Under the pieces are notes generated by a model, which was given only the letters and a program-made list of their open reading frames with translations, was not told the DNA's origin and ran no database searches. 32,081 nt of DNA. Source: an uncultured Hyphomicrobium sp. (GTDB lineage: Bacteria > Pseudomonadota > Alphaproteobacteria > Rhizobiales > Hyphomicrobiaceae). The DNA lies in contig NZ_CADEFI010000013.1 of NCBI RefSeq assembly GCF_902826555.1, positions 50,241-82,321 of the forward strand. The letters run 5' to 3'. How positions within the stretch are numbered: the stretch's first letter is position 1; every line of letters starts with the position of its first letter. Made by a program: the position numbers and the translations under genes. This document shows, one piece after another, positions 21,038-28,375 of the stretch.

Positions 21038-21943
21038 TCAGCCGCCGCTGGAACCCGTCAAGCGCAGCCGGATATAGTCGAGCTGATCGAAATTGCCGTA
21101 CTTGATGATCAGGTTGCCGCTTTCGCCGGAACCACGCTTCACCTCGACCTTCAGGCCCAGCGTGTCTGCGAGCTCCTTCTCGAAAGCCTTGGTATCGGGA
21201 TCCTTCTCACGGAGCTTGCGCGCCCCGCCCGTTGCGCCGGCGATCCCGATCGGGCCTGCGCCTGATCCCGATTGAGCCAGCGCCTCCGCCTCGCGCACGT
21301 TGAGGTTCTGCTCCAGGATCCGTTGCGCCAGCGTCTCCGCATCCTCGCGCCCGACCAGCGTCCGTGCATGGCCTGCGGTGAGCCGCCCGTCCTGCACATA
21401 GGCCTGCACTGCCTCCGGCAGCTTGAGAAGCCGCAGCGTATTGGCCACGTGGCTGCGGCTCTTGCCGATGATCTCGGACACCTGCTCCTGGCTGTAGTCG
21501 AACCGCTCGATCAACTCGCGATAGCCATTGGCTTCTTCGATGGCGTTGAGATCCGCACGCTGGACGTTCTCGATAATGGCCAGCTCGAGGACTTCGCGGT
21601 CGCCAAGCTCGCGAATGATGACCGGCACCATGTGCATGCCGGCCTTCTGCGACGCGCGCCAGCGCCGCTCGCCCGCGACGATCTCGAACGCCTGCGCGTC
21701 CTCGGGATGCGGCCGCACGATGATCGGCTGCACGAGCCCCTTGGTGCGGATCGATTCCGCAAGCTCCGCCAGGTCCTGCTCCGCGAAATCCTTGCGCGGA
21801 TTGAAACGGCCGCTCCGCAACTGGGCCACAGGCAACAACCGCTGCTCGCCCTCGGCCGGAAGGCGCGGCTGGTTCTGCGGCGCCTCCCCGATCAGCGAAG
21901 CCAAACCCCGGCCGAGCCGGCTCTTGGGTAGCGGTGAGTTCAT
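21038..21943 (-). CDS. parB: Chromosome partitioning protein ParB
   Basis: ParB is the CTP-dependent DNA clamp that loads at parS and spreads to organise the origin region. The 301-residue protein has the N-terminal ParA-interacting segment LGRGLASLIGE (10-20). Its CTP-binding domain includes NPRKDF, the GERRWR motif (91-96) and ENVQRADLNAIEEA (125-138). A helix-turn-helix (EQVSEIIGKSRSHVANTLRL) and a C-terminal dimerisation domain follow. It starts 33 nt after the parA stop. Matching parS sites are at 23391 and 26019-26912. Confidence 0.97.
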   Translation of the reverse strand: MNSPLPKSRLGRGLASLIGEAPQNQPRLPAEGEQRLLPVAQLRSGRFNPRKDFAEQDLAELAESIRTKGLVQPIIVRPHPEDAQAFEIVAGERRWRASQKAGMHMVPVIIRELGDREVLELAIIENVQRADLNAIEEANGYRELIERFDYSQEQVSEIIGKSRSHVANTLRLLKLPEAVQAYVQDGRLTAGHARTLVGREDAETLAQRILEQNLNVREAEALAQSGSGAGPIGIAGATGGARKLREKDPDTKAFEKELADTLGLKVEVKRGSGESGNLIIKYGNFDQLDYIRLRLTGSSGG

Positions 21944-21976: not shown

Positions 21977-22792
21977 TTATGCAGCTTTCGTCTGACGCTC
22001 GCGTTCGATGATTTCGGTCGCGAGTCGGATATAGGCCTGGCTACCCGCGCAGTCATAGTCGTAGAGCAGGATCGGCTTTCCGTGCGACGGCGCCTCCGCC
22101 ACGCGCGTGTTCCGCGGGATCACCGATTCGTAGACCTTGGGCCCGAAGAAAGCGCGTACTTCGTCCGCGACTTCGCGCGAGAGCGTCGTGCGGGCGTCGT
22201 GCATGGTGAGCACCACGCCTTGGATTTCGAGGCTCGGATTGAGCGTCGCCCGGATCTGGTCGATCGACTCCTTGAGCTGGGAAATGCCCTCGAGCGCGAA
22301 GAATTCGCACTGCACGGGCACCAGCACGGCGTCCGCCGCCGCCAGCGCATTGAGCGTCAGGATGTTGAGCGAAGGCGGACAGTCGATCAGGACATACTTG
22401 AAGGCCTGATCTGCCGCCTTGACCTGGGACTGGGCCGCCAGAGCCGCCACCGCATCCCTGAGCTTGTAGGCCCGGCTCGCCTCGCCCGAGAGATCGGATT
22501 CGAGGCCCACCAGGTCCTGGTTGGCCGGCACCACGAAGAGCCCCGGAATAGCCGTTGGCACCGCCACATCGAGCAAGCTCGAAGTCCCCATGACGGCGTC
22601 GTAGGACGTCCGCGTACGCGTTTCCGGAGGCACGCCGAGCCCCGTCGAAGCGTTACCCTGCGGATCGAGGTCGATAACGAGCACGCGTTCGCCGATCGCG
22701 GCCAGCGCCGTACCGAGATTGATTGCGGTCGTCGTTTTGCCGACTCCGCCCTTCTGATTGGCGATCGCCAGCGTCCTGAGCTTTGCTGTCAC
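21977..22792 (-). CDS. parA: Chromosome partitioning ATPase ParA
   Basis: ParA is the Walker-type ATPase that moves ParB-parS complexes over the nucleoid. The 271-residue protein has the deviant Walker A KGGVGKTT (14-21), LDPQGNASTG, YVLIDCPPSLNILTLNALAA and VQCEFFALEGISQL. The C-terminal part has VIPRNTRVAEAPSHGKPILL followed by YDYDCAGSQAY. The start is GTG 22792, 4 nt after the rsmG stop and preceded by GGAGGG, so it is translationally linked to rsmG in the mnmG-rsmG-parA-parB operon. Confidence 0.97.
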   Translation of the reverse strand: MTAKLRTLAIANQKGGVGKTTTAINLGTALAAIGERVLVIDLDPQGNASTGLGVPPETRTRTSYDAVMGTSSLLDVAVPTAIPGLFVVPANQDLVGLESDLSGEASRAYKLRDAVAALAAQSQVKAADQAFKYVLIDCPPSLNILTLNALAAADAVLVPVQCEFFALEGISQLKESIDQIRATLNPSLEIQGVVLTMHDARTTLSREVADEVRAFFGPKVYESVIPRNTRVAEAPSHGKPILLYDYDCAGSQAYIRLATEIIERERQTKAA

Positions 22793-22796
22793 GGGA

Positions 22797-23471
22797 CTAA
22801 CCCTCCGTCCTCGCAGCTAAATTTCGCACGATCACAATACGTGCCTCGTCGTCTGTCCGACTTGGGGCAAGCGACGCGTCGAATGCGAATCGCTCTTTCC
22901 CCTGGGCCACTTCTACCTCTGCTTCGCGACCCTTCGGAAACAGGGCCACGGTCTGGGGAGAAAAAAACGGCAAAACGAGCCCCAGGAGCTTCGGCAGAGG
23001 CGCCAACGCACGCGCGGTGATCACGTCTCTTATCTGAGAGTTAGCCTGAGTCGCCGCTTTTTCGCTCCGTTCTGCGCGAATCTCCACAGCAACCCCCGTT
23101 TTCCGGGCCACCTCCCCGAGAAAGGCCGCCTTCCGGGCGTCGCTCTCGACCAAGGCCATGCGGGCCTCGGGACGCCGTTCCGCCAGCATAATCGCGAGCA
23201 CAAGCCCGGGGAAACCGCCTCCGGATCCCAGGTCCAGCCAGCTTTTCCCTCCCTCGGGAGCAAAATCGAAAAGCTGAGCCGAATCCGCGAAGTGGCGGTG
23301 CCAGACCTGCTCCAGTGTGGAGGGCGCTACCAGGTTGACGGCCTTCTGCCAGGCCTTGAGCAGATCTTCGTAGATCTTGAGCCGGGCCAGCGTTTCACGT
23401 GAAACGCCAAAGGCTTCCCGAAACGCCTCCGGCGTATCGATGCGGCCCGGACGCTCCGAACCCGTTGTCAC
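22797..23471 (-). CDS. rsmG: 16S rRNA (guanine-N7) methyltransferase RsmG
   Basis: RsmG (GidB) uses SAM to methylate N7 of G527 in 16S rRNA. The 224-residue protein contains [20 protein letters not shown] and the SAM-binding loop [15 protein letters not shown] (79-93). The post-I motif is [11 protein letters not shown], followed by [17 protein letters not shown]. The start is GTG 23471, overlapping the mnmG TGA by 4 nt. Codons for V-S-R-E-T (residues 23-27) carry an embedded parS site (23391-23406), an arrangement known from other bacteria. Confidence 0.96.
23391..23406. promoter_or_regulatory. parS site inside rsmG
   Basis: CGTTTCACGTGAAACG is a perfect 16-bp palindrome matching the parS consensus except at the two outermost bases. 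It is encoded within the rsmG reading frame as V-S-R-E-T. Confidence 0.93.
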
Positions 23472-25345
23472 GAGGCCTGTTTCCGGGGAGAAGGCATTTT
23501 TCTGACCGCGGCCAGGATCAACATCAGCGCCGCCGGAGTCATGCCTTCGATGCGCCCAGCCTGCGCCAGCGTCGCCGGCCTCTGCGCCACGAGCTTCTGA
23601 CGAAGCTCCGTTTTGAGGCCGGATAGAGTTGCATAGTCAAAATCGCTCGGAACCTCGACCGCTTCGTCCCGCTTGAGCGCAGCAACGTCGACATCCTGAC
23701 GCTTCACGTACGACTCGTAGCGAGCGTCGATTTCGATTTGAGCCGCGATCGCGGGATCGACCGTTGAAAGCTCAGGCCAGATCTGAACCAGACGCGCGAA
23801 GTCTATGCTTGTATATGACAGAATCTCGTACGCTGTTCTGCGCCGTCCATCCTTGTTGATTTCGATTCCGTTTCGTTCCGCTTCTGTCGGTGTGAGCGTT
23901 TTTTGAGAAAGGACTTTAGCAAGAGATAGCAACGCATTGTTTTTATTAGAAAACGAGCGTGAACGAACCGGGCTCACACACCCGATGTTCTCACCCAGAC
24001 ACGTGAGCCGCTGATCGGCGTTATCTGCCCGCAAACGCAAACGAAACTCCGCACGCGAGGTGAACATGCGATAGGGCTCGGTGACCCCGCGCGTCACCAG
24101 ATCGTCGATCATGACGCCGAGATAGGCCTCGGCACGCGAGACGACGAACGATTTGGCGCGGCCGCCAGCCGCCAGCGCCGCATTGATCCCCGCCGCGATG
24201 CCCTGCGCGCCGGCCTCCTCATAACCCGTCGTGCCGTTGATCTGCCCGGCAAGGAACAAACCCTTGAGCCGTTTCGTCTCCAGAGTCGGCAAGAGTTCGC
24301 GCGGATCGACATAGTCGTATTCGATCGCATAGCCCGGCCGCTTGATGACGACCTTTTCGAGCCCCGGCAGCGTTTTCAAAAACGCGTCCTGCACCTCCGG
24401 CGGCAAGGATGTGGAGACGCCGTTCGGATAGACGGTGTCGTCGTCGAGTCCTTCGGGCTCGAGAAACACCTGGTGCGCGCTGCGATCGGCGAACCGCACC
24501 ACCTTGTCCTCGATGGACGGGCAATAACGCGGCCCCCGCGACTCGATCTGGCCCGAATACATCGGCGAGCGCGCGAGATTGGCGCGAATGATGTCGTGCG
24601 TCGCGGCGTTGGTCGACGTGATCGCGCACGTGACCTGCGGGTTGGTGATCCTCTCCGTCAAAAACGAGAACGGCACTGGATCCTCGTCGGCTGCCTGTTG
24701 CGGAAGCCCGTCCCAATCGATGGAGCTCCGGGCGAGCCGCGCCGGCGTACCCGTCTTGAGACGCCCCATCCTGAGCCCGAGCCCGTAAAGCCGCTCGGAC
24801 AGCTTGAGCGCGGGCGCATCGCCGACCCTGCCAGCCGCGTGAGTCTGATCACCTAAGTGAATGAGACCATTGAGAAAAGTACCAGTGGTCAAAACCACGG
24901 ATCCAGCCCGGATCGTCTCTCCCTTTTGCGTGATCACGCCACCGACCACGTCATCCGCCACGATCAGATCTTCGACCGCGCCCTCGAGCACTGTGAGCCC
25001 TCGGGTCTCGCGGATCGCCTGCTGCATGGCCTTGCGGTAGAGCGCCCGGTCGGCCTGCGCGCGCGGCCCCTGCACGGCCGGACCCTTCGACCGGTTCAAA
25101 AGCCGGAACTGGATGCCCGCCGCATCGGCAACGCGCCCCATGAGCCCGTCCAGCGCATCGATCTCGCGCACGAGATGGCCCTTGCCGAGCCCGCCGATGG
25201 CCGGATTGCAGCTCATCTCGCCGATGGTCTCGAAGCGGTGCGTAACGAGCGCAACCGACGCGCCCATGCGTGCGGCGGCCGCGGCCGCCTCCACGCCCGC
25301 GTGGCCGCCACCGACCACGATCACATCGAATATCTGCTCCGCCAT
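23468..25345 (-). CDS. mnmG: tRNA uridine-5-carboxymethylaminomethyl modification enzyme MnmG
   Basis: MnmG (GidA) is an FAD enzyme that acts with MnmE (26954-28291) to install cmnm5/nm5 groups on wobble U34 of certain tRNAs. The 625-residue protein begins with the FAD motif [20 protein letters not shown]. It has [20 protein letters not shown], the catalytic-region [33 protein letters not shown] and [20 protein letters not shown]. The C-terminal helical domain is complete ([16 protein letters not shown]). ATG 25345 is preceded by GAGAGAG. It is the first gene of the mnmG-rsmG-parA-parB run. Confidence 0.97.
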
Positions 25346-25547: not shown

Positions 25548-26000
25548 ATGCTGAAAGTCTGTATCGGGTGTCTCGCGGCACTGTCACTGTCCGCCTGCGC
25601 CGGGCGCACACCACAACCGACGCCGCTGGTCATGATCTCCGACAGGCAACTCGATTGCAGCGCCATCGAAGCCGAGATCAAGCTCAACAATCAGAAGATC
25701 TCCGACCTCGCCATCGAGAAGGGCTGGAAGATGGGCCAGAACGCCGTCGCCGGCGTCGTAGGCTTCATGATCTGGCCGGCTTGGCTGGGCATGGACCTCC
25801 AGAATGCTGCCGGCCAGGAGGCAACCGCCCTCTCCCAGCGCAACCAGTACCTGCTCGCCCTCGCCCGCGAGAAATGCCAGCCCAAGAGCCAGACGGCGAG
25901 CCTCACGTCGATGCCAGCGCCGCCGCCGTTCGAGACCACGCTCTCGCCGCTCGCCTCCAACTCGGAGATCACATCGAGCTTGACCCTGGTGAACCAGTAG
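25548..26000 (+). CDS. Hypothetical lipoprotein
   Basis: The 150-residue product has a lipoprotein signal (MLKVCIGCLAALSLSAC, lipobox LSAC). After a short Pro-rich linker, CSAIEAEIKLNNQKISDLAI starts a helical region. A Gly/Ala segment follows (GQNAVAGVVGFMIWPAWLGM) that resembles a glycine-zipper hairpin, then a second helix (NQYLLALAREKC). Two mature-part Cys flank the hairpin and could pair. I recall similar lipoproteins from alphaproteobacteria, without known function. It is divergent from mnmG, and the first parS cluster begins 19 bases after its stop. Confidence 0.75.
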   Translation: MLKVCIGCLAALSLSACAGRTPQPTPLVMISDRQLDCSAIEAEIKLNNQKISDLAIEKGWKMGQNAVAGVVGFMIWPAWLGMDLQNAAGQEATALSQRNQYLLALAREKCQPKSQTASLTSMPAPPPFETTLSPLASNSEITSSLTLVNQ

Positions 26001-26018: not shown

Positions 26019-26117
26019 TGATTCACGTGAAACATTGCGCGCCGCTCCGGTGCCGAGATGGATTCACGTGAAACACGTGATGCCGATCCGGACGCGAAAA
26101 TGGATTCACGTGAAACA
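26019..26117. promoter_or_regulatory. parS cluster A (three sites)
   Basis: Sites are at 26019-26034, 26060-26075 and 26102-26117, each in the same orientation and sharing ATTCACGTGAAACA. The first matches the parS consensus TGTTTCACGTGAAACA at 15 of 16 positions and the other two at 14. Spacing is 41 and 42 bp, about four helical turns. Extra CACGTG cores lie beside sites two (26074-26079) and three (26119-26124). Confidence 0.93.
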
Positions 26118-26160
26118 TCACGTGCCGGCCGCGCAGCGCTCCCGGGGTCCAGCCAATCGC

Positions 26161-26832
26161 CTATCGATGCAGTCCGGCACCCAAATCGGTCGGGTCGGGC
26201 ATGTGCGGATTGATCGTTTCATCATTCGGACCATAGCCGTCCATGCCATCGAGGATCGGCGCAAAGCGATCGTAGATCGTTTGGTCGAAGCACTGCAGAT
26301 GCAGGTGCGGGAACCACACGCCGTTTTCTTGGGGCTCACCGACACGACCCAGGAAGCTCCCCGGTTCGAGCGCGGCGCCTGGCTCGGGAAGCTCCGCATG
26401 GGCCAGGTGGCCCACGAGACAGTAGCCCGCGCCCCTGTAGAGCGTGACGAGCTGGATGAAAACGCATCCACCCCAACCGCCGTAGGACGCGTCGCGCACG
26501 ACGCGGAGAACCCTGCCCTGGGCCGGCGCAACGACCGTCGTGCCCGCCGGAACGTTATAGTCGACGGCCGTATGACGCATGAGGTCGGGATGGTGATAAT
26601 GCTCCCGCCAGAGATGGTCGCGCGGCTCCATGTATCCGCCGAAGGTGAAGTCCGCGCCCGCTTTGCGCGCCAGAGCCTCCACCCACCTTTGGCAGGTGAC
26701 GGGATCGTTGAGCGGATTGGGCGAGGCATCGGCGACCGCAGGATCGTTCTTGGCCTCAGCAGCCAGGTTCGCATACGCCCACCGCGCGGTCCGCAGCTCC
26801 GGGAACAGCATCGGCGTCAGGCTGGCGGTCAT
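26161..26832 (-). CDS. M23-type metallopeptidase-fold protein without signal peptide
   Basis: The 223-residue protein has the LytM/M23 zinc motifs: H87 and D91 in RHTAVDYNVPAGTTVVAP, then GHLAH (141-145), and H176-L-H178 in ENGVWFPHLHLQ. M23 enzymes cleave glycine-containing peptide bonds in cell walls. Here there is no signal peptide or membrane helix, and the ENG-W-PHLHLQ form recalls M23-like domains fused to cytosolic aminotransferase/kinase proteins (from memory). Substrate and location are therefore open. The N-terminal 80 residues are helical and unrecognised. The gene lies between two parS clusters, with parS sites 22 nt before its start and 43 nt after its stop. Confidence 0.8.
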   Translation of the reverse strand: MTASLTPMLFPELRTARWAYANLAAEAKNDPAVADASPNPLNDPVTCQRWVEALARKAGADFTFGGYMEPRDHLWREHYHHPDLMRHTAVDYNVPAGTTVVAPAQGRVLRVVRDASYGGWGGCVFIQLVTLYRGAGYCLVGHLAHAELPEPGAALEPGSFLGRVGEPQENGVWFPHLHLQCFDQTIYDRFAPILDGMDGYGPNDETINPHMPDPTDLGAGLHR

Positions 26833-26854
26833 GGCTTGCTCGAGTCTCCGCTAG

Positions 26855-26912
26855 GGATTCACGTGAAACACATCACACCGATCCCGGCACCGAAACGGAT
26901 TCACGTGAAACA
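26855..26912. promoter_or_regulatory. parS cluster B (two sites)
   Basis: Sites at 26855-26870 and 26897-26912 match the parS consensus at 14 of 16 positions, in the same orientation as cluster A and 42 bp apart. The spacers resemble those after the second and third sites of cluster A, for example a shared CCGATCC after the first site and CGTGCC after the second. Confidence 0.93.
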
Positions 26913-26953
26913 TCCCGTGCCTCCCATGCATCGTCCGCCCGGCACGCTCGCCC

Positions 26954-28291
26954 TCACTTGCCGATGCAGAAGCGCCCGAAGATGTGGTCCAGCACATCCT
27001 CGACATCGATCCGCCCCGTGATGCGCCCGAGCGAATCCGCGGCCCGGCGCAGGTCCTCGGCCCGAAGCTCCACGTCCTCCGTCGAGCCCTTGAGGAACGC
27101 CTCGAGAGCGGAGGCGCACGCCTCCACCAGCGTGCGGTGACGGATCTGCGTCAGCACCGGCTCTCCCTGGTGACCGATCCGCTCTTGAGCGATCACCGTC
27201 ACGCGGCGAATGAGGTCATCGAGGCCCGCGCCGCTCTTCACCGAGAGCGGCACCATATCGTCCGGCAATGGCGGTGCCTTCCCGCCCGGCATCAGATCGA
27301 CCTTGTTCAGGACCAGCAACGTCCGGTCCGCGACGGCCGCGATCTCCGGCGGCAGCACCGTCTCGGGCTCGCGCGCATCCGTCAGCCAAAGCACGAGATC
27401 CGCGGCCTCCGCCGCCGCCTGGCTACGGCGGATGCCCTCCCGCTCGATGCTCCCCTGCGTTTCACGGAACCCCGCCGTATCCGAGACGACCACGGGTAAC
27501 CCGGCAAGATCGAGCCGCACCTCGATCACGTCGCGCGTCGTGCCCGCCTCCTCCGAGACAATGGCCACGTCGCGCTGCGCGAGCGCGTTGAGGAGGCTCG
27601 ACTTGCCCGCATTCGGCGGACCCGTCAGCGCCACCCGGAACCCGTCGCGCAGGATCTCGCCGCGGTGACCATCCTCGAGGTGATGCCTCACCGCAGGAGC
27701 CAGCACCGCGATGATGGATGTCGCATCGGCAAAGGTCTTGGCACCGATGTCACCTTCATCGGAGAAGTCGAGCCCGGCTTCGATGAGCCCGAGCGCCTCG
27801 ATGAGGCTCGCGCGCCAGCCGTCGTAGAGATCGGACAGCGCTCCGGAGGCCTGCACCAGCGCCTGCCGGCGCTGTCCGTCGGTCTCGGCATCGATGAGAT
27901 CGGCCAGGCCCTCGACCTCCGCCAGGTCGAGCTTGCCGGCCTCGAAAGCGCGTCGCGCAAACTCGCCCGGCTCCGCCATCCTGAGCCCCGGCATGACGCA
28001 AAGCGCCGAGATCACCGCCTGCACGACCGCCCGCCCCCCGTGAAGGTGAAGCTCGGCCATATCCTCGCCGGTGAAGCTCTTGGGCGCCGGGAACCACAAC
28101 GCGATCCCGTGGTCGAGCTTCTCGCCCGTCTCCGGGTGACGGATGAAACGTGGGGTCGCCACCCGGGCCTTGGGCTTGGGTCCGGCCATGAAATCCAGGA
28201 CGCGTCCCGCCCCCGTACCCGACACGCGCACGACTGCCACCCCCGCCCGCCCGGGTGGGGTGGCCAATGCAAAGATGGTCGGTTCGGACAT
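26954..28291 (-). CDS. mnmE: tRNA modification GTPase MnmE
   Basis: MnmE (TrmE) is the GTPase partner of MnmG in wobble U34 modification. From ATG 28291 it has 445 residues: N-terminal tetrahydrofolate-binding domain ([20 protein letters not shown]), helical domain and inserted G domain. GTPase motifs are [22 protein letters not shown] and LNKVDL. The C-terminus ends in the catalytic C-I-G-K (GRFCIGK). An in-frame ATG at 28300 would add three residues, and neither start has a clear RBS. It is divergent from the DUF255 gene with 84 bp between them. Confidence 0.96.
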
Positions 28292-28375
28292 CGGGATCAT
28301 GCCAGCACTTTACTCGGAACACCGAAGCGCGCATTGCCACTTATCAAAGTGCAGGCCGAGCCGGAAGGAGACAGC

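Follow-up and report, generated by a model that had tools for sequence, protein, structure and literature searches.

Bases in each parS half are counted here from the G of GTTTC, and T2A denotes a change of base 2 from T to A. The closest described systems are summarized from those parts of the cited papers that were available. In Caulobacter crescentus, the parS sites of the ParABS system are clustered near the origin, with the five strongest sites within 5 kb, and share one conserved half, GTGAAA (PMC5815017). The Caulobacter consensus, t/cGTTt/cCACGTGAAAca, differs from the sites described below in that it varies at base 4 and not at base 2 to A (PMC7022226), and no tandem unit of approximately 42 bp was seen in the available accounts of this species. 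GANTC methylation at the Caulobacter parS locus was measured (PMC5172544). On pAMI4, a Paracoccus repABC megaplasmid, several identical parS sites (3parS) lie in a non-coding stretch, and nearby GANTC sites were remarked on with the suggestion of a regulatory link; however, this is a megaplasmid repABC system, and GANTC is located approximately 500 bp from parS, not inside it (PMC9040568). The budding alphaproteobacterium Hyphomonas neptunium also carries parS upstream of parAB, but it has two sites only, both perfect matches to the consensus (PMC6650430). In Pseudomonas aeruginosa and others, ParB recognizes a single perfect half, GTTTCAC, which occurs as hundreds of dispersed half-sites (PMC7022226). 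The sites described here, by contrast, sit together at parAB and deviate from a complete second half in a single base. A literature search of partial coverage (TTCACGTGAAAC; parS with GANTC/CcrM or adenine methylation; Hyphomicrobium or Hyphomicrobiales parS) retrieved neither a GANTC word inside parS nor arrays of this kind, and no ParB occupancy or binding results for T2A sites were found in it; an earlier mention is possible in the Livny 2007 survey, which is reportedly the main parS survey.

The window (the whole 32,081-nt stretch of an uncultured Hyphomicrobium sp. genome that was analyzed) contains exactly five copies of ATTCACGTGAAACA, all on the + strand, starting at 26021, 26062, 26104, 26857, and 26899. 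The start-to-start distances of 41, 42, 753, and 42 bp place them in two clusters of three and two. An earlier note on this DNA had described five identical 14-mers in one orientation, spaced by 41, 42, and 42 bp in two clusters, with an A that breaks the palindrome at one fixed place in every copy, and all of this was confirmed. As the base preceding each copy is G, the common site is GATTCACGTGAAACA, and the array of five such sites in a single orientation extends from 26020 to 26912. GATTCACGTGAAACA corresponds to the palindromic 16-bp parS (TGTTTCACGTGAAACA) with T2A in the left half only; the other half is perfect, so that a single one of the 14 core bases deviates, and strict palindromy is broken in all five sites. 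T2A turns GTTTC into GATTC, a GANTC (CcrM) word, which is thus present in five of the five array sites. Neither this GANTC word created by the A nor the perfect palindromic parS within the rsmG reading frame had been mentioned in the earlier note. The features of the locus are listed in Table 1.

Table 1. Coordinates of the parS sites, the associated TGCC words, and the neighboring genes in the window
Feature	Position	Strand	Basis or remark
parB (ParB_N, HTH_ParB, ParB_C)	21038..21943	-	Pfam; best solved relative 6t1f ParB, E 1.5e-68
parA (AAA_31, CbiA)	21977..22792	-	Pfam
rsmG	22797..23471	-	ORF; name presumed from position and sequence features
Perfect palindromic parS GTTTCACGTGAAAC (14 bases)	23392..23405	.	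within rsmG reading frame
mnmG	23468..25345	-	Pfam GIDA
Small lipoprotein-like ORF (lipoprotein by eye)	25548..26000	+	no Pfam family; matched in 8/8 genus loci
parS variant 1, GATTCACGTGAAAC	26020..26033	+	sequence match; T2A in left half, GANTC inside
parS variant 2	26061..26074	+	41 bp after variant 1
TGCC at +20 of site 2	26081..26084	+	
parS variant 3	26103..26116	+	42 bp after variant 2
TGCC after site 3	26123..26126	+	
M23 peptidase domain gene	26161..26832	-	Pfam Peptidase_M23; between both site clusters
parS variant 4	26856..26869	+	753 bp after variant 3; opens second cluster
parS variant 5	26898..26911	+	42 bp after variant 4; mnmE stop codon 42 bp away
TGCC after site 5	26918..26921	+	
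mnmE	26954..28300	-	Pfam TrmE_N, MnmE_helical

When up to three mismatches were allowed, 13 near matches were found in the window against 1.1 expected, and none of 100 window shuffles reached 13. In the whole 3.72-Mb assembly, the matches at up to one mismatch were the five array copies only, and a control search with the reversed pattern gave 0 matches. The array is therefore not a dispersed repeat, and a REP-like element was ruled out. Tandem Repeats Finder reported a 41–42 bp unit in the first cluster, with 2.4–2.6 copies and 78% matches. The three other places of TTCACGTGAA in the genome (C7, C15, and C17) hold neither a perfect parS nor T2A, and the closest of them (C17) reads GATTCACGTGAAAA.

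The array occupies the mnmG–mnmE interval, 3–5 kb from parAB, in the conserved parB–parA–rsmG–mnmG–mnmE synteny of the chromosomal core. The window ParB has R163 and G191 at the places of the Caulobacter specificity residues R173 and G201 (alignment offset +10). The equivalent of R163 was invariant in the ParBs of 83 loci from the order, T2A-bearing and T2A-free, and of 35 loci from other orders, and the equivalent of G191, tabulated in the genus, family, and other-order loci, was G except for one A (L293). In L293, which belongs to another order, both near-parS words (6890 and 8855) read GTTTCGCGCGAAAC, possibly representing a shifted ParB–parS pair.

We consider it highly probable that the five sites are an amplified chromosomal parS centromere, at which the ParB encoded 4–5 kb away would load to segregate the chromosome. 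The identity of the sites (a 14-base core identical to parS but for one base), their position, conservation, and amplification, and the one-sided, mostly A change are read directly from the sequence; binding of ParB, clamp loading, and a role in segregation are predicted. The array would have grown in the interval that is the usual alphaproteobacterial place of one palindromic parS, most likely by tandem duplication of a unit of approximately 42 bp, which would account for the common direction and the spacing. Each unit retains one consensus half (GTGAAAC), so that a ParB dimer could still nucleate, and the other half carries T2A. The T2A half may bind ParB less well, and the sites could be weak. 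The directional tandem array of parS-like sites proposed in the earlier note, which adjoins parAB, was thus supported. Its suggestion of a plasmid-like array was not supported, and a plasmid origin was rejected, as the locus lies in chromosomal core synteny and the interval had no match among 72,556 plasmid records; plasmid-type iterated centromeres, which consist of phased direct repeats with a dedicated binder, are located on plasmids with their own par genes, which is not the case here.

The T2A array was present in all eight sampled Hyphomicrobium genomes (the window and seven other genomes), with a total of 43 T2A sites in uniform orientation relative to mnmE. The mnmG–mnmE interval of the eight loci contained 42 T2A and 0 perfect sites, and the remaining T2A site was located between parA and mnmG. 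Seven perfect sites were found, one per locus in the seven loci reaching rsmG. The single-mismatch spectrum of the 14-mer in the genus comprised these 7 perfect and 43 T2A sites, and the 20 remaining symmetric classes of single change were all absent from the genus loci. Between parA and mnmE, perfect or T2A sites averaged 6.43 per locus in the genus (n = 7), compared with 2.09 in 82 other loci of the order and with 1.97 in 35 other-order loci. The spacers have diverged between Hyphomicrobium species. Of the 43 genus units, 25 have the word TGCC at +20, counted from the G of GATTC (zero of five in L041), and every other offset from 14 to 59 has it in fewer than three units; the +20 TGCC is not prominent in other genera, nor is it at the rsmG palindrome. 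Duplication alone does not account for diverged spacers alongside a conserved 14-mer and TGCC. The M23 gene was found in the mnmG–mnmE interval of four of the eight loci. Decayed array sites were observed at L038:2504 (+) and L036:7427-7440 (-) (GAGTCACGTGAGAC and GATTCACATGAAAC), where parS bases were lost and GANTC was kept.

The survey of the order and the class was anchored on MnmE so that genomes were not picked by their parS sites. For the order, MnmE matched 98 of 101 genomes, of which 83 were used; the other 15 were the window's own genome and the 14 matches with the lowest scores, and T2A words occurred in some of these matches. For the class, MnmE matched 97 of 114 genomes; 95 of them lie outside the order, and the sample consisted of the 40 with the best scores. 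The 83 order loci contained 137 perfect sites in 74 loci and 68 T2A sites in 34 loci, together with 6 T2C, 0 T2G, 11 T4C, 14 C7T, and 10 other single changes. Base 2 was altered in both halves at two sites in the order, one combining A with C and one combining C with C. The C7T site (GTTTCATGTGAAAC) ranks second in frequency among the single changes of the order sample (10 of the 83 loci) and breaks the central CACGTG. The 40 loci of other orders contained 75 perfect sites, distributed over 37 loci, one T2A site, and five other single changes; by interval, 32 perfect sites and the T2A site were in mnmG–mnmE, and 37 perfect sites were in rsmG. The 32 perfect sites mark the mnmG–mnmE interval as an established place of parS. 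T2A is thus a feature of Hyphomicrobiales within the alphaproteobacteria sampled. At least 118 stretches with two direct T2A sites 10–40 bp apart were retrieved from named genome contigs. We take most names among the 80 matches listed to be those of Hyphomicrobiales (Devosia, Mesorhizobium, Aminobacter, Roseibium, Bartonella, Hyphomicrobium, and others), and several of the matches listed were metagenome bins with other names, including a Rhodobacteraceae and a Micavibrio.

The facts to be explained are the preference for A over C and G, the restriction of A to one half, and its occurrence in nearly one order only. Hyphomicrobiales ParB may simply tolerate A at base 2, with GANTC arising by coincidence, and we give this explanation only slightly less than an even chance. 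Lysine or arginine at the position of Caulobacter A184 would add backbone affinity, so that one half could drift to A and duplication could spread the change. The corresponding residue of the window ParB is residue 174 by alignment (offset +10), and 67 of 82 order loci, compared with none of the 35 other-order loci, had K/R there; however, this contrast between the order and the class is a single clade event. Within the order, no association was observed (T2A in 28 of 67 K/R loci and in 6 of the 15 others), which ruled out residue 174 as the sole cause, and L281, the only other-order locus with T2A, has G at this position. According to the available part of a study of Noc and ParB, K164 and K169 of Noc contact the phosphates of G-5 and T2, where K169, which matches the Caulobacter A184 position, is called 'permissive' and makes the contact at thymine 2, and lysine at 179 or 184 renders some ParB variants promiscuous, as in the RTKG variant (lysine at 184), although any residue at 184 was tolerated for parS (PMC7383237). 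The Noc lysine thus contacts the phosphate of the very base that is altered in T2A.

Outside the class, K/R was present in six of seven genomes with GATTCACGTGAAAC anywhere, compared with 8 of 26 T2A-free genomes, and in none of three genomes with GCTTCACGTGAAAC and a ParB locus. The six K/R genomes come from two genera, however, and the sole one of the seven with the T2A word inside the 4-kb parB locus has Q; another has it approximately 20 kb from parB, and in the rest it lies on contigs other than that of the best parB. The missing double-A sites would fit a cost in binding, but non-specific affinity explains neither the preference for A over C and G nor the reversal at positions 3 and 4 given below. 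Tolerance by a ParB lysine is the main rival to the following reading, and the two causes may have acted together, as a permissive ParB could have made room for GANTC.

In this second reading, it is the GANTC word in GATTC that accounts for retention of the A, and each array site doubles as a ParB site and a predicted CcrM methylation site; we hold it tentatively, at somewhat below an even chance. It is compatible with the centromere reading and does not exclude it. Passage of the replication fork would leave the sites hemimethylated up to the late-cycle action of CcrM. ParB loading would be modulated by the methylation state, or ParB would protect the site against CcrM, either of which would tie segregation to replication. 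Among the single changes at base 2 in the 83 order loci, A:C:G was 68:6:0, and A was preferred although GANTC occurs at 0.61–0.63 of expectation in these loci. Sites with A in both halves numbered zero against 5.6 (order) and 9.2 (genus) expected under independent halves. GANTC leaves position 3 free (N) and fixes position 4 (T), and in a comparison that was devised after the variants had been seen, with small counts, related species, and eight family loci outside the genus that were picked because a T2A site was present, position 3 varied six times and position 4 zero times in the changed halves of the order, family, and genus loci, against 2 and 11 times in the unchanged halves (Fisher p = 0.001). 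Adding the 118 contig loci, which were selected for arrays, gave 7:1 versus 3:23 (p = 1.6e-4); when each presumed orthologous place was counted once, the ratios were 6:1 versus 2:21 (p = 3e-4). Two halves in the array-selected set, ATC and ACC, have lost GANTC and argue against this reading; the ACC half, altered at both positions, was counted in neither column.

The CcrM marker PF18755 was found in 79 of the 80 order genomes searched (80 of the 83 sampled), and the window genome encodes a CcrM-type methylase with PF01555 and PF18755. The marker was also above the cut-off in 34 of 40 other-order genomes, yet T2A occurred only once in their loci; CcrM is thus not sufficient and is at most necessary. 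G093, the only searched order genome without the marker, had no T2A at its locus, a single case that is uninformative. The perfect rsmG parS lacks GANTC, and 49 of the 83 order loci have no T2A, both of which count against this reading. In Caulobacter, GANTC methylation at the parS locus was not significantly altered by extra methylases or by loss of Lon, as far as the available part of that report goes (PMC5172544). Outside the sites, GANTC density in the order was 4.7 and 3.5 per kb within 100 bp of perfect and T2A sites, respectively, and 1.1–1.9 per kb at 800–1000 bp, a mild rise towards the sites, whereas around the T2A sites of the genus it was low (1.2 per kb within 100 bp). A half with two changes, GACTCACGTGAAAC, retains GANTC and was observed at L210:5397 (-), L224:7223 (+), L244:9208 (-), L247:3738 (+), L253:5264 (-), and L049:3428 (+). 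The L210 and L253 sites look orthologous, and the single change GTCTC was found in two order loci, again L210 and L253.

The pattern of changes suggests that the ParB site contains a mark for cell-cycle methylation. A more specific proposal, which we regard as doubtful on balance, is that a dual-use centromere evolved in Hyphomicrobiales, in which ParB would read one half and CcrM the other, replication-dependent methylation would license or delay ParB loading, and Hyphomicrobium would have amplified the site to 4–7 copies.

The spacing itself could be taken as functional, with 42 bp setting ParB dimers on one face of the DNA for cooperative clamp loading in one direction, but we judge this helical-phasing model improbable. 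The earlier note had placed the sites on one DNA face, which holds for the spacings in the window and for the 41–44 bp class of the genus, not beyond it. The phased copies looked for in close relatives were present at the genus level: of the 21 neighbor spacings below 100 bp, 15 were 41–44 bp, and all 21 pairs were direct, with significant helical phase (Rayleigh p = 7e-4, with 20 of the 21 values included) that was carried by the 41–44 bp class only. The pair adjoining mnmE was 41–43 bp apart in five of the eight genus loci despite diverged spacers. The remaining spacings, however, were 49, 52, 58, 61, 61, and 89 bp and had no phase (n = 6, p = 0.20). In the 83 other Hyphomicrobiales loci, T2A pairs below 100 bp were direct in eight cases, convergent in four, and divergent in two, with spacings of 23–53 bp and no helical phase (Rayleigh p = 0.16). 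Phase was also absent from the family loci outside the genus (p = 0.49), where eight of eight pairs were direct in loci picked for holding the site. Conservation of 42-bp phasing across Hyphomicrobiales, which the earlier note had proposed as a check, did not hold, and general 42-bp phasing was ruled out outside the genus.

The whole block was reversed in G019, G024, G040, and G045, so that orientation is uniform per genome and flips between genera of the family, and a fixed orientation relative to mnmE or parAB was ruled out by these flips. The 42-bp phasing was not encountered again outside the genus; the common direction and the phase therefore appear to be a legacy of tandem duplication, and a common 42-bp duplicated unit would be expected to give the same picture as phasing. 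Tandem duplication of a 42-bp unit in a Hyphomicrobium ancestor is therefore the simplest account of the spacing and largely replaces the phasing model, and the spacing may also be functional.

That the 14-mers are transcription elements (for instance, terminators of the M23 and mnmE genes or parts of their promoters) rather than ParB sites is very improbable, as the terminator-like stems on the - strand at 26124-26107 and 26890-26875 (three in the interval against 0.5 expected) stand against the lack of any Rfam match in the interval, a single promoter-like match away from the sites, and conservation of the 14-mer in loci without a detected M23 gene (L037, L039, L040, and L041). An RNA element was ruled out by the same lack of an Rfam match. 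One possible terminator-like stem, CACGTGATGTTTCACGTG (26107-26124, -), lies directly past the M23 stop codon and overlaps parS variant 3.

To judge by its sequence, the array is a real, conserved, and amplified chromosomal centromere of one-sided parS variants, that is, a known kind of element in a changed form, and the broken palindrome remarked on in the earlier note is the interesting part of the finding. In Hyphomicrobium, the number of centromere sites is approximately threefold the usual one. Cells of this genus bud from a hypha, and the long distance over which the DNA must travel may be the reason for the enlarged centromere. If the A is kept for GANTC, the sites would provide a direct sequence-level link between the cell-cycle DNA methyltransferase and the chromosome segregation machinery. 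Even if ParB merely tolerates the change, an order-wide, one-sided, and almost A-only parS variant would stand beside a known 'permissive' ParB position, and the T2A variant can be regarded as a natural experiment on the co-evolution of ParB and parS.
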